A DNA stretch of 59,384 nt, taken from NCBI RefSeq assembly GCF_028716865.1, contig NZ_JAQUOY010000018.1:1-59384 (forward strand), given 5' to 3'. Position 1 is the stretch's first letter; each line of letters begins with the position of its first letter. Origin of the DNA: Candidatus Methylomirabilis sp. (GTDB lineage Bacteria > Methylomirabilota > Methylomirabilia > Methylomirabilales > Methylomirabilaceae). The translations under genes and the position numbers were made by a program. Positions 6,904 through 47,770 of the stretch are shown here, piece by piece. A model generated the notes under the pieces. The model ran no database searches. It saw only the letters and a program-made list of their open reading frames with translations, and was not told the origin of the DNA.

Positions 6904-8076
6904 TTATTGGCAAAGTAGCTGTGTGGAATTGATGGTTGGTGATGTAGTTTCTCGGTAAAAGATGAGTGCAAGTAATGCCAGACTATTGGCGTAGTAATCG
7001 TCCGTAGGTGTAAAGAGGCTCACGTCTTGGTTGAATGCGTGAGAGAGTTTCTCCATCACACCGGCTGAGATGGGACCATTCGATCTCGCCAGCGCTGACA
7101 GGCTCATGGCATAGGCGGCGACGTGTTCGTATTGCCCGGCTGGTCTGCCCTCGTACGTATATTCGGCAAAGAATCGACCGCCGCGCCTCTCCCACTCCTG
7201 CGTATAGAAATCCCTCATACCATCAAGGTAGCGTCTGGCCCGATTCTCCTCGAACCATAGTGCATCCATTCCGAGTCGCCATGGGGTTCGAATCGCATCC
7301 CAGCTAAATCGATCCGACAATCCTTGGGCACGCATCAGGGATCCGTCTGCAGTAAGGAGCAGCCAATCCGGTACCAAGCCCACGCCTGCGGTTCCGGCGA
7401 AGTGTTTCGAAACCGTCTCGATGAGGTAATAGCTTGCTTCGATTAGGTCGTTCCAACGTGGGTCTCTGGTACACGCAAAGAATATCCGGAAGTGGGCTGG
7501 CGACAGATAGGAGGGGTTGATGATGGAGGCGTTGTGTCCTGTTCTCCAGTTTCCCGGTAGGAGATACCTCCGTCCGTTGATTAGCGCTGTTTCCAGATCG
7601 AGCAGATCGCGCATGACCAATCGCGCTTTTTTAGTATAGCGTTCGTCGTGCCAGCGTGCGGAAGCGGTTATGAGCGCGAGGACATAATCGAGGTCGGCGT
7701 CGGACGCACTGTTCCAGTCCGTGACCCCACGACCTGGTTCCCAATGCCAGGCCAGCAGATGGTCGCCGGTGCGGCCCTTGCGCGAGAGGTGTGCGTCGGT
7801 CCAGTCCAGGACCTTGTCGAATGTCTGTCGGTCGTCAAGCAGCGAGGCGATGAGGAGCGCATACGCTTGTCCTTCGGAGACTGTATCGTCATTATTGCGC
7901 GGGCGAGAGACGCGTCCATGGGCATGAATAAATCGTGCGGTATATCCACCCCACGCCTTGGTGATGAGATCAGACAACGGATCGGTTGCTGTTGCCGGGC
8001 GAGTGGGCGTAACTCTGGCACACGCCGTGGCAAGGAGGATTGTCAGGAAGAGAGATAGGGGGATGGGTGTGCGCAT
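6904..8076 (-). CDS. bcsZ: Glycoside hydrolase family 8 lipoprotein (BcsZ-type endoglucanase)
   Basis: This 390-residue protein belongs to GH8, the family of BcsZ, a periplasmic endo-beta-1,4-glucanase that trims or releases nascent cellulose. The N-terminus is hydrophobic and ends in ATAC with Cys19, a probable lipobox, so it is likely a lipoprotein. The general acid Glu68 lies in VSEGQAYALL, and the acidic motif ASDADLDYVLAL (124-135) supplies the catalytic Asp. The region GNWRTGHNASIINPSYLSPAHFRIF is also typical of BcsZ. It is the last gene of the minus-strand cluster, 13 bases after the TPR/beta-barrel gene, which fits a role in polymer secretion. Confidence 0.88.
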   Translation of the reverse strand: MRTPIPLSLFLTILLATACARVTPTRPATATDPLSDLITKAWGGYTARFIHAHGRVSRPRNNDDTVSEGQAYALLIASLLDDRQTFDKVLDWTDAHLSRKGRTGDHLLAWHWEPGRGVTDWNSASDADLDYVLALITASARWHDERYTKKARLVMRDLLDLETALINGRRYLLPGNWRTGHNASIINPSYLSPAHFRIFFACTRDPRWNDLIEASYYLIETVSKHFAGTAGVGLVPDWLLLTADGSLMRAQGLSDRFSWDAIRTPWRLGMDALWFEENRARRYLDGMRDFYTQEWERRGGRFFAEYTYEGRPAGQYEHVAAYAMSLSALARSNGPISAGVMEKLSHAFNQDVSLFTPTDDYYANSLALLALIFYRETTSPTINSTQLLCQ

Positions 8077-8089
8077 AGGAGTCGTGGCG

Positions 8090-9610
8090 TTAGAATGTCA
8101 ATCGCATAAAGATTCCGGTATTCCATTCGTGATAGACACTTGATCGAATGATTTTGAGTGATGGAACCATGTCAAGCCGTTGTGTGAGCGGGTAGGAGAG
8201 CGTGCCGTGCCATTCGTGAAAGAGCTTGGCGTTACTATCGACGGAGACGCCGTAATAGACGGTATAGTGGTTACGTGGGGCTTCTGCAAGATGGTCTTTG
8301 TGGGTGGGGTAGCCGAGCCAGTGTTGAAATTCTATGGCGGCCGTATTGGTGGCGTAGGCGCCAGGGGAAAAGTACGAGGATGCGCGTTGGAATCCATACG
8401 CATTGACACGGTAGATGAGGCGAAGCGTCCGTGGGAACCAGAGCACCTGATATGACGTGAGGAACTCGCCCCCAAGTCGGGTGTTGTGATCAGAGTAGTT
8501 GGTGACGTCACCTCGGAGTGTCCAGTCGAGATGTCGACCGAGTGTTCCGCCGACATGTGTGGAGACGCGGTTCATGGCGATGCCATTGAGGACCGTTGTT
8601 CGATTTTCCCAGACATCTTTTCGTTCGAAGTCTATCCCGAGCTGTATTCCAGAGAGGGTCTCGTAGGAGAGGCCGATTCCTCCGTTGATATGGTCTCGTT
8701 CGCGTCCATTATAATGGAGTCCGCTGATGAATCCGTCGAGGTGAAGCCAGCGAGTGGGGTTGTAGCGCCATCGTCCGGTAATTGTGTGGGCTGTTGAGCC
8801 GAACGTGAAGTGTGTGTTGTCGTACGCGTAGCTGGTTGAGAGGGCATCAGAGAGTCGCAGTCGTTCTTCGATGCTGGCCAGTCCGTAGGTGATCGAGCGT
8901 GTGTTGTCGAAACCATGTTGGTTGATATAGGTATAGCCAAGTGTGAGCAGTGGTCGTTGGGAGAGCGTGCTGAGGTCTAGCGCCAGCCTGGCTTGTCGGT
9001 GTTCTGGGAGAAGGGATAAGAGCTGACGGTAGTGTGTGTGAGCGTCAAAAGGCCGGTCGTTTCGGGTGGCAAGTTGGCCAAGATCGAATAGGATGTCACT
9101 GTTGTGCGGTTCCAGTGTGGCAAGCTGTTCAAGCGCTGTCGTTGCCTGTCTGATGTGTCCACGCCATAAGGCCTCTTTTCCGTTGTATTCCAGTTGCACG
9201 GTCGTGTTGGTCGGAAATCGCTCGAGGATGGTCTGATAGGTGTCCAGGGCGGCGTCATAATCGGAGGTCCAGCTGTATGCCATGGCGGTGGTACGCCAAA
9301 GTGAGAGGTTGTTGGGGGCGAGTGTGGTGGCGGCTTCAAATTGGTGAATCGCCTCAAGGGGATGTCCGATGTCCAGGAAGAGCCATCCCAGTTCGGCCAC
9401 AGCGTCCCACTGTTCAGGATCGTGTGTAATGGCGAGCCCATAGCGGGCGATAGCACGGTCATAGGCGTGAAGCTTCCAGGCGTTTCGTGCGCCGAGCAGG
9501 AGGATGTCGCGGTTGCTGGGCTCCTGGGCTCTTGCGAGCGTCGTAGCCCAGACGCCAAGGAGACCCCAGATTAAGATCTGGATGGTGACTCGATGGTGTA
9601 TGTGGGACAT
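8090..9610 (-). CDS. TPR-containing outer-membrane beta-barrel exporter (BcsC/PgaA-like)
   Basis: The 506-residue protein has a signal peptide ending near ARA-Q29, then roughly 180 residues of TPR-like helices (repeats with EPSNRDILLLG, DPEQWDAVAELGWLFLDIG, APNNLSLWRTTAMAYSW, EPHNSDILFDLGQLA). The second half consists of alternating aromatic/polar beta strands and ends in GIFMRLTF, the C-terminal Phe signature of outer-membrane barrels. This is the architecture of BcsC, PgaA and AlgK/AlgE-type exporters that pass polysaccharide through the outer membrane. It is much shorter than BcsC (about 1,100 residues) because it has far fewer TPRs. It is the outer-membrane component of this cluster by inference from architecture and context. 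Confidence 0.8.
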   Translation of the reverse strand: MSHIHHRVTIQILIWGLLGVWATTLARAQEPSNRDILLLGARNAWKLHAYDRAIARYGLAITHDPEQWDAVAELGWLFLDIGHPLEAIHQFEAATTLAPNNLSLWRTTAMAYSWTSDYDAALDTYQTILERFPTNTTVQLEYNGKEALWRGHIRQATTALEQLATLEPHNSDILFDLGQLATRNDRPFDAHTHYRQLLSLLPEHRQARLALDLSTLSQRPLLTLGYTYINQHGFDNTRSITYGLASIEERLRLSDALSTSYAYDNTHFTFGSTAHTITGRWRYNPTRWLHLDGFISGLHYNGRERDHINGGIGLSYETLSGIQLGIDFERKDVWENRTTVLNGIAMNRVSTHVGGTLGRHLDWTLRGDVTNYSDHNTRLGGEFLTSYQVLWFPRTLRLIYRVNAYGFQRASSYFSPGAYATNTAAIEFQHWLGYPTHKDHLAEAPRNHYTVYYGVSVDSNAKLFHEWHGTLSYPLTQRLDMVPSLKIIRSSVYHEWNTGIFMRLTF

Positions 9611-9614
9611 CCGG

Positions 9615-10121
9615 CTACTCTCCCAACAGGACAGCGATGTGTCGTTCGGCGTCTACAAATTTTCCGCGGTTATGGAGTTCGAGTGCGAGTTGCATTCTCA
9701 TGTCTTTGCGGAGTGGTTCAAGGCCAACTAATCGGGTGAGTGTCGTGAGGATCTCGTCGTGCTTGTTGGTCTTTCGTAGGGTCTCAAGAAGACCCGTCCA
9801 CGCTTGTGTGTTGTCGGGATGCGCGTCAAGGACGAGTCGAAACTGTTGTTCCGCATCGGCAAGCTGTCCGGTGGCCATCAAGACCCATCCCAGCTCTTGC
9901 TGTATCTCGTGGAGGTGGGGGTTGCGTGTGAGTAAGGCGCGATAACGCTTGACGGCGACGTGAGGCATCCCAGCTTTTGTGGCGTTCCTGGCGCCCATGA
10001 GGAGGAGGAAGTGTTCGTCGATCTTTCCATCTGGTTCTTGAGCCGTAGCGAGTGAGGTGAAACCGACGAGGAGGAGGACAAAGAGCAGAGTTCGTGGTGT
10101 GGCATGGCAATGGTGTCTCAT
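9615..10121 (-). CDS. Small secreted TPR protein of the bcs-like cluster
   Basis: A 168-residue protein with a clear signal peptide (LLFVLLLVGFTSLATAQ, cleavage near residue 28) and about three TPR repeats in the mature part (RNPHLHEIQQELGWVLMATG, AHPDNTQAWTGLLETL, RKDMRMQLALELHNRG). Its mature N-terminus resembles the first repeat of the downstream exporter (GARNATKAGM versus GARNAWKLHAY), so it may be a duplicated piece of the TPR scaffold. Start and stop overlap the neighbours by four bases upstream and leave a four-base gap downstream, a tight operon. A periplasmic scaffold role is inferred. Confidence 0.75.
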   Translation of the reverse strand: MRHHCHATPRTLLFVLLLVGFTSLATAQEPDGKIDEHFLLLMGARNATKAGMPHVAVKRYRALLTRNPHLHEIQQELGWVLMATGQLADAEQQFRLVLDAHPDNTQAWTGLLETLRKTNKHDEILTTLTRLVGLEPLRKDMRMQLALELHNRGKFVDAERHIAVLLGE

Positions 10122-10540
10122 CGTGGGGAGTCTCCTAAGAGCGTGGAAAAGTGATGTTCGGCTTCGATGTATCGACCAGTGTGGTGGAGGGTCAGTGCCA
10201 GGCGCAGTCGTAATCCATGATTGTCAGGGACTGTGGCAACGACGCGGCGCCAGATGTCCAACGCAGCGTCTGTGGTGTTTGCTCGATCGAGGACCTCGCC
10301 AAGTTTGACAAAGGATTCAATGTCGTATCGGTGAAGCTGTGAGGGGGCCATCTGGCGGTAGAGGTGTTGTGCGATCACTGGATCTGGTGTTGTGGATGCC
10401 CTGGCGATTCGTTCAAGGGCAATGTCGGTTGAGTAGAACCAAGTGAAGGCTTCCCAAACAATAATGACCCAGAGGGTTCCACACAGGAGAAGGAGTCGTG
10501 GAGATGTGACAAGGTCGTGAGGGGTTATGCGGGGGAACAT
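10118..10540 (-). CDS. Small membrane-anchored TPR-like protein of the bcs-like cluster
   Basis: This 140-residue protein has one N-terminal membrane segment (LLLLCGTLWVIIVWEAFTWFY, residues 17-37) and a periplasmic helical region with two TPR-like units ending HTGRYIEAEHHFSTLLGD. It overlaps the end of the synthase gene by 16 bases and the next gene by four, so translation is coupled. By position it could tether the secretion scaffold to the inner-membrane synthase, a place normally filled by BcsB, to which it shows no resemblance. No named family is recognised. Confidence 0.7.
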   Translation of the reverse strand: MFPRITPHDLVTSPRLLLLCGTLWVIIVWEAFTWFYSTDIALERIARASTTPDPVIAQHLYRQMAPSQLHRYDIESFVKLGEVLDRANTTDAALDIWRRVVATVPDNHGLRLRLALTLHHTGRYIEAEHHFSTLLGDSPR

Positions 10541-12720
10541 GAGGAGTGCGCCTCAAGAAAGGTGGTCAGAGCATCGGATGCGTGTTCCGGTTGGGTCATG
10601 AATGATGCGGTGATTCGGTACCATCGTCCAACGACGATATCTTTACAGTGGTGGATGGTGATGGTCGTGGTGAATTGTCCCTGTGGGGTGAACAGGGTGA
10701 CCATGGTTTGTGTCTGTGGTGACAGAGGGGCGTAGGTGAGAAACGTCAGCGTGTCAGCCGTGATGTGTTCCGTAATAACGTAGTGTGGGGGAGTGGTATG
10801 AATGCGGAGTGGGAGTTGAGAAGTAGGCTGGTGGTCGGATGGGGGGGTGAACCAGCCGTGCGTGTATGAGAGAAGCCATCGCGTCAGCGAGGATGGTGTC
10901 GGATCAAATTGACGGAGGAAGATGGGCAGCATGTGATTGAAACAGAACTCAGTAATGGTGTCCTTGTCGATTCGACTGAGGTTGGTAAATTGGACACCGT
11001 ATCGGAAGATTCCCGTGGGAGATGTGGTTTTGTGGACGTAGAGGACGAGCCCGACACAGGTGAACAAGCGTGATCCTAAATGCAGTCGTAGGCGAATAGG
11101 TTCGCGAAGCGGGAGGGCGGTGAAGGTTGTTAACCCCATGCCGTCGGCAGTCAGATCTGTGACGGTACCCAACCCACTGACCGCACATCCATAGTCGTCA
11201 TGTTCGTACTGGACGGGGAGATTTCCTAGAAATCGCGATTCTTTTCGGCGGTGGAGCGGAGCGGTGACTTTTGTAATGACGGTCCAGGCAAGATAGGCAT
11301 TGACTGCGCTCCAGAAGATGCCGATCCCGAGTCCCAGCCAGTTGTGCGAGGTACCGTAGGCCCATTTAAGCCCCCCCCATTCGATGGCTGTTATACCTAA
11401 GATGATAATCGTGAATTGGGGGATGAGGGTAGAGAAGCGTGCGGTTTCACCGGCTCCCTTTACCGTCACGATGAATCGACCTTTTAAGCGGAGGAGGGCT
11501 TTGACCATGGCTTTCATTAAGACAAAGAAGTTCATCATGTTGTGGACCTCTTCATCGCGAATTCGGCTGTAGCCACGGCTGACAATCTTCACGGTGGCAA
11601 TGACCGCAGTCAGAAAGATGGTATAGCGCCAGATGAACGGCCAATTGAAGGGCACCACCGGATACCAGTTCGTGAGGAGCATGATGGCTGGGGTAATGAA
11701 GTAGATGAGTTTTGGGAGCCCGATGAACCAACTGAACACCGTGGCGAAGAAGCAGAGTCGTTGGGGCAGCGTGAGTGCTTTTGCAAAGAGTGGGTTATCG
11801 ACAAAGAGGAGACTAATATTGCCTTCAGCCCATCGGAGTTTTTGGATGTGGTAGTCCTTGAGATCGGTTGCCGCTAAACCACTTGAGAGTGGTTCGTTAT
11901 GGTAGATTCCTTTCCATCCACGTTTGTAGAGGCGGACGCTGGTATGGAGGTCCTCGGTAATAGTTTCGATGGCAAATCCGTTGACGTCGTCAATAGCGGT
12001 GCGCCGAAAGACGGCCGATGTGCCGGCGAAAAAGGCGGAATTCCAGTAGTCCATCCCGGGCATAATAAGGCGATAAAACATATCGCCTTCGTTCCATTTG
12101 ATATGTGTGGCTTGGTGAAATCGGAACGAAAAGGAATCAACGTTATAGTAATTCTGTGGGGTCTGGACGAACGCAACATGGGGATCCGTCAGATAGCCCA
12201 GTGTCTTGTCGAGAAAGTCTGGTTGGGGCACGTAGTCCGCATCGAAGATGGCAATAAAATCCCCCCTGGTAACCGAGAGGGCGTGATTGAGGTTGCCGGC
12301 CTTGGCGTGGACGCGTTCGGTTCGTGTCAGGTATTTGCACCCTAGTTCAGTGGCGAGCGCGGCACATTCGGGCCGATGGCCATCGTCAAGGATGTAAGTG
12401 GTATGGGGATAGGTGATATTGAGACAGCCCCGGACGGTTTTTCGGACAAGTTCGATATCTTCTTTGTAGGTGGGGATGTAGACATCGACGCGTAAGTTGG
12501 GTGGAGCTGGAGGCGGTGTGCGGGTCAGTGGATGCCAGATAAGAAAGAAGTAGAGGGTGAGCGACAGAAATCCGTGGAGTTCGGCATAGTAGAAGAGGAG
12601 CGAGAACCACCAGGCGTCCCAGTTGATGGTATAGACCAGACGATAGACGAGGTAATAGAGATAGATTGCGAGGGTGAGGACCATCACGGTTTGGTGAAAT
12701 CGTCGTGTCGATGGCGTCAT
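10525..12720 (-). CDS. bcsA: Cellulose synthase catalytic subunit BcsA (GT2 with PilZ domain)
   Basis: This 731-residue inner-membrane glycosyltransferase polymerises UDP-glucose and translocates the chain. It has N-terminal membrane helices, a GT2 domain with DDG (112-114), DAD (160-162), TED (255-257) and the product-binding QKLRW (293-297), a further block of membrane helices from about 318 to 485, and a PilZ domain with RxxxR at 492-496 (RKESR) and D-x-T-x-x-G at 522-527 (DLTADG). The PilZ motifs predict activation by cyclic di-GMP. It is the first gene of the cluster. The polymer is most likely cellulose, although a related beta-glucan cannot be excluded. No bcsB lies beside it. Confidence 0.93.
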   Translation of the reverse strand: MTPSTRRFHQTVMVLTLAIYLYYLVYRLVYTINWDAWWFSLLFYYAELHGFLSLTLYFFLIWHPLTRTPPPAPPNLRVDVYIPTYKEDIELVRKTVRGCLNITYPHTTYILDDGHRPECAALATELGCKYLTRTERVHAKAGNLNHALSVTRGDFIAIFDADYVPQPDFLDKTLGYLTDPHVAFVQTPQNYYNVDSFSFRFHQATHIKWNEGDMFYRLIMPGMDYWNSAFFAGTSAVFRRTAIDDVNGFAIETITEDLHTSVRLYKRGWKGIYHNEPLSSGLAATDLKDYHIQKLRWAEGNISLLFVDNPLFAKALTLPQRLCFFATVFSWFIGLPKLIYFITPAIMLLTNWYPVVPFNWPFIWRYTIFLTAVIATVKIVSRGYSRIRDEEVHNMMNFFVLMKAMVKALLRLKGRFIVTVKGAGETARFSTLIPQFTIIILGITAIEWGGLKWAYGTSHNWLGLGIGIFWSAVNAYLAWTVITKVTAPLHRRKESRFLGNLPVQYEHDDYGCAVSGLGTVTDLTADGMGLTTFTALPLREPIRLRLHLGSRLFTCVGLVLYVHKTTSPTGIFRYGVQFTNLSRIDKDTITEFCFNHMLPIFLRQFDPTPSSLTRWLLSYTHGWFTPPSDHQPTSQLPLRIHTTPPHYVITEHITADTLTFLTYAPLSPQTQTMVTLFTPQGQFTTTITIHHCKDIVVGRWYRITASFMTQPEHASDALTTFLEAHSSCSPA

Positions 12721-20214: not shown

Positions 20215-20358
20215 GCAGAGCCTCCTTTCAGTCGAGATTCTAACACCACTACACGTGAGGGCAAGTCTTTTGTCTGAAACTCTACCTCCTCAGATTCAGA
20301 AGCGTCATCTTCTTCGATGGAAGACTCCTGGAAACGAGGTAAGGGTGGGAGGCGACTG

Positions 20359-21417
20359 ATGCAGTGGTCGATTCGTATCCTTGTGCTCAGCTTGTTTCTG
20401 GTCGAGCACGCCTGGGGGGCTCAGCCGGTGCCGGCTCGGCCCGGTGAGGCCGACCAAGCGTACCGACTTGGCGTACGTTTGCAGCAGGAGGGACGATTGG
20501 CGGAGGCGATTGAGGCATTCCGATCCACCCTTCGGCTTAACCCTATGCGTACCGTCGCCTATGTGAGGCTCAAGGAAGTATATGGTCGTGGTCGGACGAG
20601 CGATCAGGTGGTTGCAGAGCTCAAACAGCAGACTGATCAGGACGACACCGACTTTGTATCGTGGAATCTGCTTGGTATCCTCTATGCCAAGCAAAGGCGC
20701 TGGGCTGACGCCATGGCCGCATTGCAGCGAGCAGTGCAGATTCAGCCTGCAGATGTCGATGCATGGACGAGTCTCGGGTGGCTCTCGTCGGAATTAGGGC
20801 AGATCGAAAAGGGCCGCGAAGCCTTCCGTCGAGCCCTTGTTCTCGATCCTGCCTATGGGCGCGCTCATGCCGGCCTGGCTGGGCTGTATGCGGAGACGGG
20901 TGGTAGCTATGATAAGGCGATAGAGGAGTATCGGCTCGCGTTATCGGTTGAGCCGGATAATCCGGCCTACCTGTATGATATGGGGTGGGTCTACTACCGG
21001 AAGGGGATGACCGATGAAGCGCTGAAGATCTTGACGGAGGCGTCAATCCTCAGTCCGGACGATGCGACAGGGCGGGCGAAGATCGGGTGGGCGCGGCTTC
21101 GTCGCAAGGAGTACAGGGCTGCTATGGAGGAGTTTGAGCGGGCGTTGCGCATACAGCCGACCTATGCCTTTGCTCGGTTCGGGCTGGCGCGAGCGCTTCA
21201 GGCAGAGGGAAACGACGAAGCGGCTGCTTTGGAGTACAAGCGGGCATGGCGGGAAGCCGATAACGATATCTATCTGTTGTACCTTATTAAGCTCTCCTTG
21301 CAACGAAACCTTTGGGTAGTTTTCCTGGTAGTGGCATCGGCGATGGGTCTGACGCTGCTATGGCTCATGCGGCGCAGAGGTCCCCCTGAGGCTTCTAGGC
21401 CTGAGCCTGGAAAGTGA
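20359..21417 (+). CDS. Exported TPR-repeat protein with C-terminal membrane anchor
   Basis: This 352-residue protein has a signal peptide (MQWSIRILVLSLFLVEHAWGAQ), then about eight tandem TPR units covering residues 30-310, for example ADVDAWTSLGWLSSELGQIEK, DPAYGRAHAGLAGLYAETGG and EPDNPAYLYDMGWVYYRKG. A membrane helix (LWVVFLVVASAMGLTLLWLM) and an Arg-rich end close it, so the TPR domain sits in the periplasm tethered to the inner membrane. The start at 20359 has GGGAGG seven bases upstream; an earlier in-frame start at 20317 lacks a site. The partner is unknown. Confidence 0.85.
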   Translation: MQWSIRILVLSLFLVEHAWGAQPVPARPGEADQAYRLGVRLQQEGRLAEAIEAFRSTLRLNPMRTVAYVRLKEVYGRGRTSDQVVAELKQQTDQDDTDFVSWNLLGILYAKQRRWADAMAALQRAVQIQPADVDAWTSLGWLSSELGQIEKGREAFRRALVLDPAYGRAHAGLAGLYAETGGSYDKAIEEYRLALSVEPDNPAYLYDMGWVYYRKGMTDEALKILTEASILSPDDATGRAKIGWARLRRKEYRAAMEEFERALRIQPTYAFARFGLARALQAEGNDEAAALEYKRAWREADNDIYLLYLIKLSLQRNLWVVFLVVASAMGLTLLWLMRRRGPPEASRPEPGK

Positions 21418-40444: not shown

Positions 40445-42481
40445 ATGAAGCTCACACTCCAGCAACTTGAAGCCCATCTGTGGGGTGCGGCGAATATCCT
40501 GCGCGGCAAGACCGCGGGGCAGGACTACAAGAACTACATCTTGTCCCTGATGTTCTACAAGCGCCTCTGCGACCAGTGGGAGTGCGAGGCCGACGACGCC
40601 ATCACTGAGTTGGAGCGGCAGCAGGGCCGCGCCTTCAGCGAGAAAGAGAAGGCGGTCTTCCGCAAGCGCGGCGAGCACCGTTTCAAGATCCCGGACGCCT
40701 CGCGCTGGGGCGACGTGAAGGCCGCGTCGACGAACATCGGTGAGGTCCTAACGAAGGCGATGCGCGCCGTGGCCGACGCGAACGACGAACTCCGTGGCGT
40801 CTTCACCGTGGACTGGAACCAGCCTGCGCCCGACGGCTCCGGCAAGCCGCTCATCCCGAACGAGGTCGTCCACGCGCTCATCCAGCACTTCGATGAGCAC
40901 GATCTGTCGAACAAGAGCGTCCCGTCGGACGTCCTGGGCCGGGCCTACGAGTACCTCATTAAGATGTTCGCGGACGACGCGGGCGCCAAGGCGGGCGAGT
41001 TCTTCACGCCGCCGGAAGTCGTGGACACACTCGTGCGAATTCTCGAACCGCGCCCTGGCGACACGGTCTACGATCCCACGTCCGGTTCGCTCGGCATGCT
41101 GGTGCACACGGCCGACTACCTCCGCGAGCAGGGCCACCACGCCACGAGCGCCCGCTACTTCGCACAGGAGATGAATTGGGGCAACGCCGCCATCGGCAAG
41201 ATCAACTCCGTACTGCACGGCCTCGAAGCCAATATTAAGGCAGGCGCCAGCACGATCATCGACCCGCAGTTCCTCGAAGACGGGCGAGTGAAGAAGTTCT
41301 CGCTGGTCCTCGCCAATTTCCCGTTTTCCGACGAGTTCTGGTGGCTGAAGCCGGAGCAACAGACCGACGACAAGAAAAAGAAGGACAAGCTCAAGAAGGA
41401 GATCTTCGGCAAGGAGGGCTTCAAAGACCCGTTCGGCCGCTTCGGCCGCGGCACCGGCTTCAAGGCGCCTCCGGCCGGCTACGGTGACTACGCGTTCATC
41501 CTCCACATCCTGGCCTCGCTGACCGATGATGGCCGTGCCGGCATTGTCTGCCCGCAGGGCGTGCTCTTCCGCGGCCAGCCAGAGGTTGAGGAGGAGACGG
41601 GCGAGTTTGACGACGACGGCAACCCGAAGGTGAAGCGCCGTAAAGCCGATGACGAACACCTCATCCGCAAGGCGCTCCTCGAGTCGCGGCTGATCGACGC
41701 CGTGATTTCCCTCCCGCTCAACGTCTTCTATGGCGCCGGCGTTCCCGCGTGCCTGCTCATCCTCCGCAAGCAGCGTCCGGACGCGCGCCGTAACCACGTG
41801 TTGCTCCTCTACGCCGCGCGGCACTACCGGGAGCTCTCGGCACAGAACGAACTCCGTCCGCAGGACGTGATGCGGATGCTCGTCCACTATCACGCCTACG
41901 GGGACGCCGCAAAGGTGCCTGGCCTCGTGGCCGCGCACGGCGGGCGCATCTACAGGCAGATTGACCTGCGCGAGGAGGACGAAGTCGGACGGCTCGAGGC
42001 GGAATACCAGCCTCATGCCGACAAGCTGGCGGCGCTGGACGCCGAGCTTGCCGGGGCATGCATGCGGCGAAGTACAGCCAGGACGAAGGGCGAGAAGGCA
42101 AAGGCCGCGACCGCCCTCGCCAAAGTGGAGAAGCAGCGCGAGAAGATTGCCGCAAAGGTGGCCGAACGTGACGAGCGCATCGCCGAGGCGCGGCGCCGCG
42201 CCGAGGATGACCGCAAGGACGTGGCCGCGGTGGGCGATGAGATCCTCGCCCTCTACGCCGATCCGGACGAGTTGCTCAAGCATGCGCGCGTTGTTGGCTT
42301 CGCTGAAATTGAGGAGAACGAGTTCAACCTTAACATCCCGCGCTACGTAGATACGTTTGAGCCGGAGCCTAGGATCGAGGTCAAGGACGCGCTGAGGGCG
42401 CTCGCCGAGGCAGAGGCGGCGGCGAACAACGCCAGGGGGGAGCTATCGCGACTCGTGAAGGAAGCCGGCTATGCAGAATGA
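40445..42481 (+). CDS. hsdM: Type I restriction-modification system, methyltransferase subunit HsdM
   Basis: This 678-residue N6-adenine methyltransferase works with HsdS (specificity) and HsdR. The N-terminal helical domain (LWGAANILRGKTAGQDYKNYILSLMFYKRLCDQWE) is typical, then AGEFFTPPEVVDTLV, the SAM motif DPTSGSLGML (canonical DPxxGSGxxL) and the catalytic ANFPFSDEFWW (canonical NPPF). The C-terminal third has a long Arg/Glu/Ala coiled coil (residues ~520-600). The N-P-P-F core reading N-F-P-F is seen in some HsdM relatives but deserves a check. It overlaps hsdS by 11 bases. Confidence 0.94.
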   Translation: MKLTLQQLEAHLWGAANILRGKTAGQDYKNYILSLMFYKRLCDQWECEADDAITELERQQGRAFSEKEKAVFRKRGEHRFKIPDASRWGDVKAASTNIGEVLTKAMRAVADANDELRGVFTVDWNQPAPDGSGKPLIPNEVVHALIQHFDEHDLSNKSVPSDVLGRAYEYLIKMFADDAGAKAGEFFTPPEVVDTLVRILEPRPGDTVYDPTSGSLGMLVHTADYLREQGHHATSARYFAQEMNWGNAAIGKINSVLHGLEANIKAGASTIIDPQFLEDGRVKKFSLVLANFPFSDEFWWLKPEQQTDDKKKKDKLKKEIFGKEGFKDPFGRFGRGTGFKAPPAGYGDYAFILHILASLTDDGRAGIVCPQGVLFRGQPEVEEETGEFDDDGNPKVKRRKADDEHLIRKALLESRLIDAVISLPLNVFYGAGVPACLLILRKQRPDARRNHVLLLYAARHYRELSAQNELRPQDVMRMLVHYHAYGDAAKVPGLVAAHGGRIYRQIDLREEDEVGRLEAEYQPHADKLAALDAELAGACMRRSTARTKGEKAKAATALAKVEKQREKIAAKVAERDERIAEARRRAEDDRKDVAAVGDEILALYADPDELLKHARVVGFAEIEENEFNLNIPRYVDTFEPEPRIEVKDALRALAEAEAAANNARGELSRLVKEAGYAE

Positions 42482-43742
42482 CTGCTTTCCCGAAGCCGCC
42501 ACTGAATGGTCGAAGGCGTTTGTAGGTAGACTAGCTGACGTCAACCCGCGGTATCGAGTAAAGAAGGGAAGAGACTATCCCTTCATCGAAATGGCTGCGG
42601 TCGGTGAGAACTTCCGAGGCATCCTGAGCCTGGACAGCAGGATGCTCGAAGGCTCGGGACTGTCGCGCTTTCGGGTGGGCGACACGCTGTTCGCGAAGAT
42701 CACGCCGTGTCCGGAAAACGGGAAAGTGGCCTTCGTGTCCTATCTCCCGGACGATGTCGGTCTCGGTTCTACCGAGTTCATCGTTCTTTCCCCGCGTCCC
42801 GGGATCGATCCGCGTTTTCTCTATCACCTGGCGTGCTCACACCCCGTGCGGGGCCGTGCCGCCGCACGCATGGAAGGCTCAACGGGTCGTCAGCGAGTCC
42901 CCGAGGAAGTGTTCACCAGGCGCCTCCTTGTTCCGATTCCGAATTCGTTCGAGCAAGCCGCCATCGCCCGCATCCTCGACGCCGTGGACACGGCACTGGA
43001 GCGCACGCGCGCGGCGGTCGATCGGGCGCGGGAGCTCCGTCGTGGATTGCTCCAAGCTGCCTTCGAGTTCGTGAACTCACAGGAGCCGGAGCAAGACTCC
43101 GATTCAGGACGGATTCCTCGATCCTGGGACGCCATCAAAAGCAAACAAGCCTTTGTCATTGTCACGGGCGGGTGCAGCAGCGTCGATGCTTTAAGGTTGC
43201 CTCGGGACGGAGAGACTCCGGATTCATGGTTCATGAAGGTGGATGACTTCAACGCCCTCGCTAACCGTCGAACGATTGTCCAGACGAAGCTTGGGTTTCG
43301 TGAGGCCGACAATCGCCTCTTCAAGGTGCTTCCGCCTGGAACGCTGGTAATTGCGAAACGTGGCGCTGCCATTCTAAAGAACCGTGTCCGAATGACGGCC
43401 GTTCCGGTCGCGCTCGACCCAAACCTCATGGCGCTCCAGGTGCTACCAGGAATGCGGGCTGAGTTCCTGCGGTATCAGCTGGAGTGGCGCAATCTCTCGC
43501 GTTACGTCGAGGATTCCGGGGTACCGCAACTCAACAATAAAGATCTATACCCTCGGTACTTCCTGCGGGCGCCAGACGACCGCCAGCGGGAGATCATTGA
43601 GACTGTCGGGGCAGCGGAGGTGCTCGAACATGCCCTGATTGCAAAGTGCGATGCGTTCGAGGCGCTCAAGAAGTCCCTGATGTACGACCTTTTCACCGGC
43701 CGGGTCCGCGTGAGCAACGAAGCGAAGGCAGCCGCGTCATGA
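42471..43742 (+). CDS. hsdS: Type I restriction-modification system, specificity subunit HsdS
   Basis: HsdS recognises a bipartite DNA site through two target-recognition domains joined by coiled coils. The 423-residue protein shows TRD1 (residues ~10-165, GRLADVNPRYRVKKGRDYPFIEMAAVG), a first spacer helix (FEQAAIARILDAVDTALERTRAAVDRARELRRGLLQ), TRD2 (~205-370) and a second helix (RQREIIETVGAAEVLEHALIAKCDAFEALKKSLMYDLFTGR). The site cannot be predicted. It overlaps hsdM by 11 and hsdR by 4 bases. Confidence 0.93.
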   Translation: MQNDCFPEAATEWSKAFVGRLADVNPRYRVKKGRDYPFIEMAAVGENFRGILSLDSRMLEGSGLSRFRVGDTLFAKITPCPENGKVAFVSYLPDDVGLGSTEFIVLSPRPGIDPRFLYHLACSHPVRGRAAARMEGSTGRQRVPEEVFTRRLLVPIPNSFEQAAIARILDAVDTALERTRAAVDRARELRRGLLQAAFEFVNSQEPEQDSDSGRIPRSWDAIKSKQAFVIVTGGCSSVDALRLPRDGETPDSWFMKVDDFNALANRRTIVQTKLGFREADNRLFKVLPPGTLVIAKRGAAILKNRVRMTAVPVALDPNLMALQVLPGMRAEFLRYQLEWRNLSRYVEDSGVPQLNNKDLYPRYFLRAPDDRQREIIETVGAAEVLEHALIAKCDAFEALKKSLMYDLFTGRVRVSNEAKAAAS

Positions 43743-46700
43743 GCGAGTACAGCTATGTCGAGCAGCCCATCCTCACCTGGCTCTGCGGGGAGCCTAAGGC
43801 CACGTACCGGGCGGGCGGCCTTGGCTGGACGTACCGGGACGAGGAGGCCATGACGCTGTACGAGCGGCCACTGGAAGATCCACTTGTGGAGAAACTGCTG
43901 GTCGCAGCGATTCTGCGCATCAACCTGGAGGTGAAGACCGAGACGCAGGCGAAACTGGCGGTGGCGGCGCTGCGAAAGACGATGTCCCACCCGGACCGGC
44001 TCACGGCCAATCGCCAGACCCTCGACCTGCTGCGGGACGGCGCCAGGGTTATGCTCACTCCGGGCGAAAACGCGACGACCGTGCATTTCATTGAATTCGA
44101 TCCCGGGAGGCAGAACCAGAACGATTTTACCGCGACCAACCAGTATCGGGTGCAGGGCATCAAGCGGTGCCGCGAGGACACGGTGCTGCTGGTGAACGGC
44201 ATCCCGCTTGTGATCGCCGAATACAAGAGCTACGTCGCGAGCGGCAAGGACTGGCGCGAAGCTGTTCAACAGCTCCACCGCTACCAGCGGCAGGCGCCGC
44301 TGATGCTGACGCCGAACGTCTTTTGTGTAGCGGCCGACGAGGACGAGTTCCGCTACGGCACCGTGCTCTTTCAGGACGCGAGCAAGGAAGAGATCGAGCG
44401 GCACCTCGACCTCTGGGGGCGTTGGCTCAGCCTGTATCCCGATCATCGCGGCTGGTGGAACGATCCGGAAGCCGCCGACCCGGACGATCCGCTGGAGGCG
44501 CCGGTCAAGGGCCTGCTTCGGCTCAAACCGGCGCACCTTCTCGACTTTCTCCAGCACTTCGTTGTTTTCGAGACCAAGAAGGGGAAGACGACCAAGAAGA
44601 TTGCGCGCTACCAGCAGTTCGAGGCCGTGAACGAACTGGTCGACCGCACGGTATCGCTTGTGGGCTGCCCGGCAACAGCTCAGGATCGCACCGGTCTCAT
44701 TTGGCACACCCAGGGGTCCGGGAAGTCGCTCACCATGATCTTCGCCGGCCAGAAGCTACGGCGGCACCCGGCGCTCAACAACCCCACGGTCCTGATCGTG
44801 GTCGACCGCCGCGACCTGAAGACGCAGCTTTCCGATGACTTCGACGCCTGCGACTATCCCAATGTGGAGAAGGCGCTCGGGGTCGAGGACCTCAAGAGGA
44901 GGCTCCGCGCCGAGTGGCAGGGCACGCTGGTGACGACCGTACAGTCGTTCCAGAACATGGGCGACCTCGCCCCGCTCACCCGCGACAATATCATCAGTAT
45001 GGTGGACGAATGCCATCGCTCGCAAAAGGGTGACGGTACCGAGAGCTACGCGATGACCATGCGGGTCAAGCTCGCGAACGGGTTCCGCTATGGCTTCACC
45101 GGCACGCCGATCGACCGGACGATGCAGAACACGCACCGCGACTTTGGACCGCTGAAGGATGGCGTGCAGGAACGCTACCTTAGCTATTACGGCATCCGGC
45201 GCGCGATCCAGGACGGGGCCACGCTGGAGGTACACTACATTCGCGACAAGGTTCCGTTCACGGTCGATGAAGCCACACTGAACGTCGGTTTCGAGCAGAT
45301 GTGCGCCGAGATGGAGTTGGAGGACGAGGAAGCGAAGGACTTTGTCCAGCGCCAGCGCTCGCGGTGGAAGGAGCTGGCCCGCCATCCGGAACGCGTGGAC
45401 ATCGTGCTCGACAGGATGCTCACACACTTCCTGGAACATCCCGACCCGAACGGCTTCAAGGCCCAGCTCGTCGCCGTCGATCGCAAGGCGTGTGCGGTCT
45501 ACAAGGACGCGCTCGATGCCAAACTGAAGGCGCGCGGCCTGCCGCCCGAATGGTCGGACGTGATCATCTCCGCGGCCCAGAACAGCGAGCCTGACGTCGA
45601 ACGCTTCGAGTATCCGAAGGCGAAGCAGGACGAACTGATCGACTACTTCAAGCTCACGCCGGCGGAGTGGGAGGTGTGGAACTGCGAGCGGCACGGGGAG
45701 GATCGCAGCCGGTGGCGGCCGCCCCTCAAGATCCTCATCGTCTGCGACCGATTACTGACCGGGTTCGACGCCCCGGTCGAGCAGGTGATGTACCTCGACA
45801 AGCCGTTGCGCGACCACAACCTGCTCCAGGCGATCGCTCGGACCAATCGCCCGCTGCCGTCGATGAAGAAGCGCACGGGCATCGTCGTGGACTACTTCGG
45901 CGTCTTCACCAACCTGGAGAAGGCCCTCAACTTCGACGAGAATATCCGCGAGGAATCGCTGATCGACTGGGACGCGCTGCGGGCGACGGTGCCGGGCGAG
46001 GTGGCCCGGTGTATGGAAACCTTTGCGGGCATCACGCGGGCGGATACGCGCGAGTGCCTACTGGCGGCGCTGAGACGGCTGCGCGATCCGGAGACGGCTA
46101 AGAACTTCGAGCACAACTTTCGGAGCCTCGAGCGGCTCTGGGAGGCCATCTCGCCGGACCCATGCCTCTATCCGCACCGTCACGAGTACAACTGGCTCTG
46201 CGGCATCTACGTCGCCCACCGCCGTCGGCAACGCGGAAGCAAGGACACCTACGGCGAGCTGTCGGCGAAGACCCGGCAGCTCATCCAGGAGAACACGACC
46301 TTCCTCGACATTGCGGAGTCGCTGCCGGTCTTCAAGATCGACAAGGACTACGTGAGCAAGCTCGACGAACTGCCCACGCCGGCCGACAAGGCAGCCGCCC
46401 TCGAGGCCATTCTCACCGGCGAGCTGTCCGAGGACGACCCGAGCTTCATCTACCGGCAACTCGGCGAGCGGTTGCAACGTGTCAAGGAGCGCCGGGATGC
46501 GGGCGACGAGGCAACAGCGACGCGTCTGCGGGAGCTGGAAGAGATCGCAGCGGCGGTCGCTGCGACCAAGCAGGAGCCGAAGCGCCTCAACCTGAGGCAG
46601 CCGGGGGAATATGGGTTGTACACGGTCCTGCGGGCTCACGCTCCGTGCGCCGATGAGACCTACGTCGCGGATTGTGCGCGCCGCATGGTGAAGCACTTGC

Positions 46701-46888
46701 ATACTCACCAGCTGTTGGGGCCCGGCTGGAGTGCCTCAGTCGGTGGTCGGCAAGCTGTTGAGCGATCCCTGTTGGCCGAGTCGTGGAACTCAACTTATGG
46801 GGCGCTTGGGTTCGAGGAAGGCGCTGAGCATCCGCTATTCCTGCCGTCGGCAGTAGAGGAGCTTGCCAAGGCGGACAGGTTGAGCTGA
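43739..46888 (+). CDS. hsdR: Type I restriction-modification system, restriction subunit HsdR
   Basis: This 1049-residue subunit translocates DNA and cuts it. The PD-(D/E)xK nuclease motif is GIPLVIAEYKSY near residue 157, the helicase Walker A is HTQGSGKSLTM, motif II is DECHRS, motif III lies in FTGTPI and motif VI is QAIARTNRP. A C-terminal helical domain follows. It starts at the ATG at 43739 that overlaps the hsdS stop; an open frame back to 43646 is inside hsdS. No frameshift is seen, so the system appears intact. Confidence 0.95.
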   Translation: MSEYSYVEQPILTWLCGEPKATYRAGGLGWTYRDEEAMTLYERPLEDPLVEKLLVAAILRINLEVKTETQAKLAVAALRKTMSHPDRLTANRQTLDLLRDGARVMLTPGENATTVHFIEFDPGRQNQNDFTATNQYRVQGIKRCREDTVLLVNGIPLVIAEYKSYVASGKDWREAVQQLHRYQRQAPLMLTPNVFCVAADEDEFRYGTVLFQDASKEEIERHLDLWGRWLSLYPDHRGWWNDPEAADPDDPLEAPVKGLLRLKPAHLLDFLQHFVVFETKKGKTTKKIARYQQFEAVNELVDRTVSLVGCPATAQDRTGLIWHTQGSGKSLTMIFAGQKLRRHPALNNPTVLIVVDRRDLKTQLSDDFDACDYPNVEKALGVEDLKRRLRAEWQGTLVTTVQSFQNMGDLAPLTRDNIISMVDECHRSQKGDGTESYAMTMRVKLANGFRYGFTGTPIDRTMQNTHRDFGPLKDGVQERYLSYYGIRRAIQDGATLEVHYIRDKVPFTVDEATLNVGFEQMCAEMELEDEEAKDFVQRQRSRWKELARHPERVDIVLDRMLTHFLEHPDPNGFKAQLVAVDRKACAVYKDALDAKLKARGLPPEWSDVIISAAQNSEPDVERFEYPKAKQDELIDYFKLTPAEWEVWNCERHGEDRSRWRPPLKILIVCDRLLTGFDAPVEQVMYLDKPLRDHNLLQAIARTNRPLPSMKKRTGIVVDYFGVFTNLEKALNFDENIREESLIDWDALRATVPGEVARCMETFAGITRADTRECLLAALRRLRDPETAKNFEHNFRSLERLWEAISPDPCLYPHRHEYNWLCGIYVAHRRRQRGSKDTYGELSAKTRQLIQENTTFLDIAESLPVFKIDKDYVSKLDELPTPADKAAALEAILTGELSEDDPSFIYRQLGERLQRVKERRDAGDEATATRLRELEEIAAAVAATKQEPKRLNLRQPGEYGLYTVLRAHAPCADETYVADCARRMVKHLHTHQLLGPGWSASVGGRQAVERSLLAESWNSTYGALGFEEGAEHPLFLPSAVEELAKADRLS

Positions 46889-46891
46889 CGA

Positions 46892-47770
46892 ATGAAGGTT
46901 GCAACCCAACATCAAACCCGGCTTGGTGGCCGCCGCGTCGACTACCGGGTGATGCGTTCGAGGGCCGCACGGAAGCTGCGCGTCCGCGTGGGACCGAACG
47001 GCGTGGAGGTCGTACAACCGACCGCGCGTGATGGTGAGGATGTGTCGGCCTTCCTGGACAGCAACAAGGCGTGGATTCTTGATCAGCTTCAACGCGTAGA
47101 TCGACTTCGCAACGTGCGGCGGCCTGTGCAGCGTCGAGTTGGCGTGATTCTCTTTCGTGGGGAACTGACGCAGGTGCGCGTCGAGACGACGGAGACTCGA
47201 GGGCGAGGAAACATTGTCGATTTCATCGATGGTGAAATCGTCGTGCGGCGGGGAGCCGAGTCGCAAACACCGGCGGCGCGCGGCCTCGAGAACTGGTTAC
47301 GCAAGCAAGCACGCGCCGAGATTGAGAAGCATCTCGCAATCACGACCACCCGCATTCGACAGAACTCGCAGCGACTATACATAATGGGGCAGCGTACCAA
47401 GTGGGGAAACTGCTCTCCAGAAAGGAATCTGTCGTTCAACTGGCGGTTGATCCTTGCGCCTGAGTTCGTCCTCCGCTATCTCGTTACGCATGAAGCGGTA
47501 CACCTGGTCGTGCCGGACCACTCCTCGAAATTCTGGCTCACGGTACAGAGCCTGTGTCCTGAGACAGAGAAGGCAAAGCAGTGGTTGTGCAGGCATCAAG
47601 CACAGTTAACGGTCGACCTTGGAAGTGTTGTGAAACTAGCCACTGGGTTGAGTGGGAGGGCAAACGCCCGAGGTGCTATCGTATCCCGGGGACGCGGGCA
47701 CCGGCGGATCAGCGCCAGGGCGTTAGAGGAATCGACAAGCGATCACGATTGGCGTAGAATGCCTCTATGA
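46892..47770 (+). CDS. YgjP-like metallopeptidase (DUF45/SprT-like zincin)
   Basis: A 292-residue protein of the YgjP/DUF45 family. The zinc site is HEAVH at residues 200-204 (LVTHEAVHLVVPDHSSKFW), preceded by MGQRTKWGNCSPERNLSFNWRLILAP, the family signature. The N-terminal DYRVMRSRAARKLRVRV strand is also typical. Members often sit directly behind hsdR in type I systems; the function there is unknown. A C-terminal Arg/Ser-rich tail of ~45 residues is specific to this protein. It starts three bases after hsdR and overlaps hicA by four. Confidence 0.88.
   Translation: MKVATQHQTRLGGRRVDYRVMRSRAARKLRVRVGPNGVEVVQPTARDGEDVSAFLDSNKAWILDQLQRVDRLRNVRRPVQRRVGVILFRGELTQVRVETTETRGRGNIVDFIDGEIVVRRGAESQTPAARGLENWLRKQARAEIEKHLAITTTRIRQNSQRLYIMGQRTKWGNCSPERNLSFNWRLILAPEFVLRYLVTHEAVHLVVPDHSSKFWLTVQSLCPETEKAKQWLCRHQAQLTVDLGSVVKLATGLSGRANARGAIVSRGRGHRRISARALEESTSDHDWRRMPL

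Follow-up and report, generated by a model that had tools for sequence, protein, structure and literature searches.

Which protein, if any, takes the part of BcsB in an operon that encodes a BcsA-type synthase and no BcsB? BcsB is regarded as a fixed part of bacterial cellulose synthase, and what BcsB really contributes becomes testable in a natural system that lacks it. We looked into this question in a contig of 59,384 nucleotides (here called the window) from a 2.54-Mb Candidatus Methylomirabilis genome that is 99.98% complete. In this contig, the gene after bcsA encodes a candidate BcsB-replacing partner of just 140 residues (T140).

The operon and its synthase

The open reading frames of the window and their translations revealed a compact operon of five genes in the order BcsA-T140-T168-OMP-GH8 (Table 1). 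Pfam and NCBIfam profiles identified a BcsA-type GT2 enzyme with PilZ, three TPR proteins (T140, T168, and OMP), and a GH8 protein. BcsA and T140 overlap by 16 bp and T140 and T168 by 4 bp (ATGA), and the remaining junctions are gaps of 4 bp (T168 to OMP) and 13 bp (OMP to GH8). The compact five-gene operon without BcsB that a preliminary description had reported was thus recovered at the same positions on the minus strand, with gaps of at most 13 bp. That description had also proposed looking for the same gene order in other genomes, and the order was found in two genus-mates (G005 and G008). Compared with related genomes, all five genes had dN/dS ratios of 0.09 to 0.29, with dS saturated in most comparisons. 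Because the order is kept in two related genomes and the dN/dS ratios lie in this range, the five genes are not chance open reading frames, and sequence comparison indicates that purifying selection acts on all of them.

Table 1. Genes of the operon, with positions in the window
Gene	Predicted product	Position	Strand	Basis
BcsA	BcsA-type processive GT2 with PilZ, 731 aa	10525..12720	-	ORF, domain calls, motifs
T140	140 aa, one N-terminal TM helix and ~2.3 TPRs, candidate BcsB substitute	10118..10540	-	domain calls, co-occurrence, selection
T168	168 aa, signal peptide and ~4 TPRs	9615..10121	-	domain calls, relatives, selection
OMP	exporter of BcsC/PgaA/PelB type, 506 aa, with signal peptide, ~5 TPRs, and a 16-strand beta barrel	8090..9610	-	model, fold match
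GH8	GH8 endoglucanase (BcsZ type)	6904..8076	-	GH8 domain E 2.8e-49, residue alignment

The synthase has the GT2 motifs and the PilZ domain of a canonical BcsA. Its motifs DDG 112, DAD 160, TED 255, and QKLRW 293 and its gating loop (FIVTVK 416) are intact and keep the general patterns DxD, QxxRW, and FxVTxK, and the PilZ motifs RKESR 492 and DLTADG 522 (patterns RxxxR and DxTxxG) are intact as well. Tandem PilZ domains are found in this BcsA subfamily: two PilZ stretches were present in 7 of the 7 relatives tested, and the second retains RxxxR and [DN]xSxxG in most relatives. In the window BcsA, one PilZ stretch was detected and the second PilZ-like domain is degenerate (about aa 620 to 715, in the C-terminal stretch of aa 620 to 731). 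The model of a relative, in which BcsA was fused to T140 (locus L004), contains two six-strand PilZ-like barrels. Proteins with GGDEF domains are encoded in the window's genome. Among the relatives' loci, one Brocadia operon has a PAS/GAF/GGDEF diguanylate cyclase gene upstream of it, on the opposite strand (L005, 3832 to 5814), and another has a gene for a PAS hybrid histidine kinase after bcsA-T140 (L003, 12035 to 15463).

Distribution of BcsB and T140

Canonical Bcs systems contain BcsB, for which we searched with the profile PF03170. Both positive controls (E. coli and B. subtilis) were matched. The preliminary description had named a bcsB elsewhere in the genome as the finding that would speak against it, and none turned up: there was no match across the window's own genome or in 16 other T140-bearing genomes (3 genus-mates, 12 Brocadiia, and one “Nitrospinae”-labeled metagenome-assembled genome with locus L009), bearing in mind that an extremely divergent BcsB could escape a sequence profile. 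Such a BcsB, or another periplasmic partner encoded elsewhere (e.g., an HlyD-like protein), could do the job of BcsB and leave T140 an accessory role, and type IV cyanobacterial operons, which lack bcsB and for which HlyD-like proteins have been proposed instead, provide a precedent (PMC12430437). However, PF03170 matches B. subtilis and, strongly, the Brocadiia of the other type described below, yet it matched 0 of 17 T140 genomes, and none of the operon genes seen in the window or in relatives' loci resembles BcsB; we therefore consider an unseen partner improbable.

Next, we evaluated how T140 and the window's BcsA subfamily were distributed in relation to each other. In the Brocadiia (the class of Ca. 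Brocadia sapporoensis, 75 genomes; T140 profile threshold, 1e-12), T140 was matched in 12 genomes, all at E values of ≤7.4e-57, and the BcsA subfamily was matched at E values of ≤4e-175 in precisely those 12. The two also coincided in the same four genomes when the 60 closest relatives of the window's genome were scanned, and their genome sets were identical overall (16 of 135 scanned). The nominal probability of the overlap in the Brocadiia arising by chance is 4e-14, which overstates the significance since the genomes are not independent. Furthermore, all four Brocadiia genomes with a distant BcsA (E value of about 1e-90) lacked T140 and had BcsB (E value of ≤1.3e-104), while the presence of the subfamily BcsA and T140 and the absence of BcsB held in 17 of 17 genomes. 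T140 and BcsB are therefore mutually exclusive among BcsA-bearing Brocadiia genomes. The T140 profile matched none of 398 Pseudomonadota.

In a phylogenetic tree, the T140-linked BcsAs formed one clade (support, 98/98) on a long branch (1.16 changes per column), and the BcsB-linked BcsAs of the same class grouped with E. coli BcsA, apart from that clade. A large survey took a functional locus to be one in which bcsA and bcsB are both present (PMC7112194) and could overlook the T140-linked clade. One further BcsA (genome G026) was excluded as a family member, as its genome lacks T140 and the protein itself falls among the BcsB-linked BcsAs in the tree; it carries two PilZ stretches and is encoded beside a BcsS-like barrel (L020, 6732 to 11058) in a genome without BcsB.

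T140 overlaps BcsA or starts within about 160 bp after it in nearly all loci, and this adjacency holds also where regulators, rather than the exporter and GH8, come next. In one locus (L036), T140 sits between two bcsA genes, and L034 is an exception in which other open reading frames separate BcsA from T140. Tandem bcsA pairs occur in many Brocadiia loci (L004, L005, L006, L007, and L010). Some bcsA copies are broken by stops or frameshifts (L006, 7551 to 9792; L010, 11245 to 12985; L034; and L038), through either decay or assembly error.

Plant CesA and hyaluronan synthases function without BcsB, and BcsA of this clade might likewise need no partner for catalysis, with T140 being a mere periplasmic adaptor between the synthase side and the TPR exporter. 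The architecture of T140, which resembles that of an anchored TPR adaptor, would fit this explanation, and the long branch of the clade means that partner dependence may differ. Nevertheless, T140 adjoins BcsA even at loci where no exporter gene follows, and its constant presence with the subfamily BcsA is a tighter bond than an adaptor alone needs, which makes the explanation rather unlikely. The proposal of the preliminary description, that the membrane-anchored TPR protein occupies the place of BcsB, gained support from the shared gene order elsewhere and from the mutual exclusion of T140 and BcsB.

A further possibility is a decaying, nonworking operon from which bcsB and the central part of bcsC have disappeared. 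The exporter is short and its TPR part is split in the window's genus, and stops and frameshifts are present in some Brocadiia bcsA copies, as decay would predict. Against this stand the retention of the gene set in genus-mates with dN/dS ratios as given above, the intact catalytic, gating-loop, and PilZ motifs, and the lack of BcsB throughout the clade, which spans two phyla or more. Decay is thus very improbable.

The exporter and the glucanase

The model of OMP (pLDDT, 85) comprises a signal helix, about five TPRs, and 16 strands, and its best structural match was E. coli BcsC (E value, 3.6e-16), with PgaA and PelB also among the best matches. Its predicted fold is thus that of the canonical BcsC-type exporter, with TPRs and a 16-strand barrel; the Pfam BCSC_C match was weak. 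Because the BcsC-specific profile PF05420 matched just one of seven exporter barrels, and weakly, the exporter was placed by its fold. In Pfam, the OMP barrel is as close to PgaA as to BcsC.

Where an exporter was found in the Brocadiia loci and in L009, it is a single chain of 1206 to 1624 aa, long and BcsC-like. T168 corresponds to the N-terminal TPRs of this long protein and OMP corresponds to its C terminus. A split gene or assembly artifact was rejected, as T168 and OMP each begin with a separate start and signal sequence, and G005 and G008 have the two-piece exporter too. The short form is limited to the window's genus. The “reduced secretion machine” suggested in the preliminary description therefore holds for the exporter of this genus but not for the system overall, given the length of the exporters in the other loci.

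GH8 corresponds to the BcsZ endoglucanase of canonical systems, and its residues E68, D126, and D260 align with the three catalytic residues of E. coli BcsZ (E55, D116, and D243). A possible lipobox (LATAC) is present in the window GH8, and a possible lipobox cysteine is also present in the GH8 proteins of L005 and L007; judging from these motifs, all three enzymes are possible lipoproteins, in contrast to E. coli BcsZ.

The exporter and the glucanase, together with the synthase, also bear on the nature of the polymer. Another GT2 product, such as a mixed-linkage or altered glucan, would place the system outside the BcsB rules for cellulose and would be compatible with T140 replacing BcsB. In keeping with another product, the window BcsA scored 390 bits, below the CelA equivalog cutoff of 699 bits, and the barrel is equally PgaA-like and BcsC-like in Pfam. 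On the other hand, the closest solved structures to the window BcsA are the E. coli and R. sphaeroides BcsAs, and the operon has a BcsZ-type GH8 whose catalytic residues are kept; we regard another polymer as unlikely.

T140 as a candidate replacement for BcsB

Near the N terminus, every T140 member has a single hydrophobic segment rich in aromatic residues, followed by about 2.3 TPRs; in the window T140, this single segment is the transmembrane helix at about aa 10 to 32. A few basic residues precede the segment in most members, and the whole layout suggests a topology with the N terminus in the cytoplasm and the TPRs in the periplasm. T140 has neither the domains of the BcsB family (two carbohydrate-binding and two flavodoxin-like) nor its C-terminal tail anchor. 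Because the T140 helix is predicted to run N-in/C-out, the reverse of the BcsB anchor, any replacement of BcsB by T140 would be analogous and not homologous. Moreover, T140 has no carbohydrate-binding domains, so the chain-guiding role of BcsB is left without an obvious substitute. In L004, T140 is in frame 9 bp past the BcsA stop, and BcsA and T140 were modeled as one chain via in-frame read-through of L004/L006; the L004 model was of moderate confidence (mean pLDDT, 69; pTM, 0.57), carries no interface score, and is not counted here in favor of a contact. Judging from its translation, window positions 20317 to 21417 encode a further TPR protein, unlinked to the operon, whose membrane helix is at the C terminus.

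We propose that T140 is most likely a stand-in for BcsB, both as the membrane partner of the synthase and as the periplasmic dock for the TPR exporter, and that the operon probably encodes a c-di-GMP-regulated, synthase-dependent system that secretes cellulose or another, closely related beta-glucan. This explanation is based on gene content, conservation, the absence of BcsB, co-occurrence, mutual exclusion, the modeled exporter fold, and the intact catalytic and PilZ motifs. BcsA would polymerize UDP-glucose and extrude the chain once c-di-GMP binds PilZ. BcsA with the BcsB tail anchor alone is active in vitro, and that anchor occupies a groove of BcsA TM1-3 (PMC11470070); similarly, the N-terminal helix of T140 may pack on the membrane part of BcsA. 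The apex of BcsB binds TPR#1 of BcsC (PMC11379886), and the periplasmic TPRs of T140 may bind those of the exporter (T168 and OMP here, the long BcsC-like N terminus in relatives), which would bring the synthase into line with the pore of 16 strands in the outer membrane, while GH8 would trim the glucan. T140 could thus perform two minimal jobs, providing a helix for BcsA and a TPR partner for the exporter TPRs. More broadly, we lean slightly toward a new type of cellulose secretion in Methylomirabilis-type, anammox-type, and “Nitrospinae”-labeled bacteria. In this type, the tandem-PilZ synthase would have a one-helix TPR protein, in place of BcsB, as its obligate partner, and a chain of TPRs would link the synthase to the pore.

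We compared the system with those already described. Like canonical Bcs types I to III (BcsA-BcsB-BcsC/BcsK-BcsZ), it combines a PilZ-regulated BcsA, a TPR/16-strand barrel exporter, and a GH8 enzyme in one operon; unlike them, it has no BcsB, has T140 beside BcsA, has tandem PilZ domains in the BcsA subfamily, has an exporter in two pieces in the window's genus, and shows no BcsD, E, G, or Q in the window operon. Cyanobacteria provide known examples of BcsA systems that lack BcsB, and these involve HlyD-like proteins (PMC12430437). Their type IV system (XcsA-XcsB[HlyD]-TolC) likewise has a BcsA-like synthase and another membrane protein in place of BcsB, but T140 is a TPR protein rather than HlyD-like, no HlyD-like gene is present among the genes of the window operon, and the exporter is a BcsC-like TPR barrel rather than TolC (PMC12430437). 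BcsK of type III operons is also a TPR-rich periplasmic scaffold encoded apart from an outer-membrane barrel, but it replaces BcsC where BcsB exists, whereas the window system lacks BcsB and has the barrel (PMC11470070). PgaA and PelB share the TPR and outer-membrane barrel fold of OMP, but the partner enzymes of OMP are a BcsA-type synthase and GH8 and not Pga or Pel proteins.

In the literature searched, which was mostly openly accessible, we found no description of a TPR-anchor type of BcsB-less system and, on cellulose synthase in Methylomirabilis or Brocadia or on systems lacking BcsB, nothing relevant except type IV. The operon and the recurrence of the swap in anammox bacteria thus point to a variant, not yet described, of the machinery with which bacteria secrete cellulose. 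If the explanation holds, a glucan under c-di-GMP control would be expected in anammox-type bacteria and in nitrite-dependent methane oxidizers, whose aggregation matters for engineering. Elsewhere in the window (40445 to 47770), translations read as a type I restriction-modification-like locus (methylase, specificity, and helicase-nuclease subunits) with a metallopeptidase-like gene.
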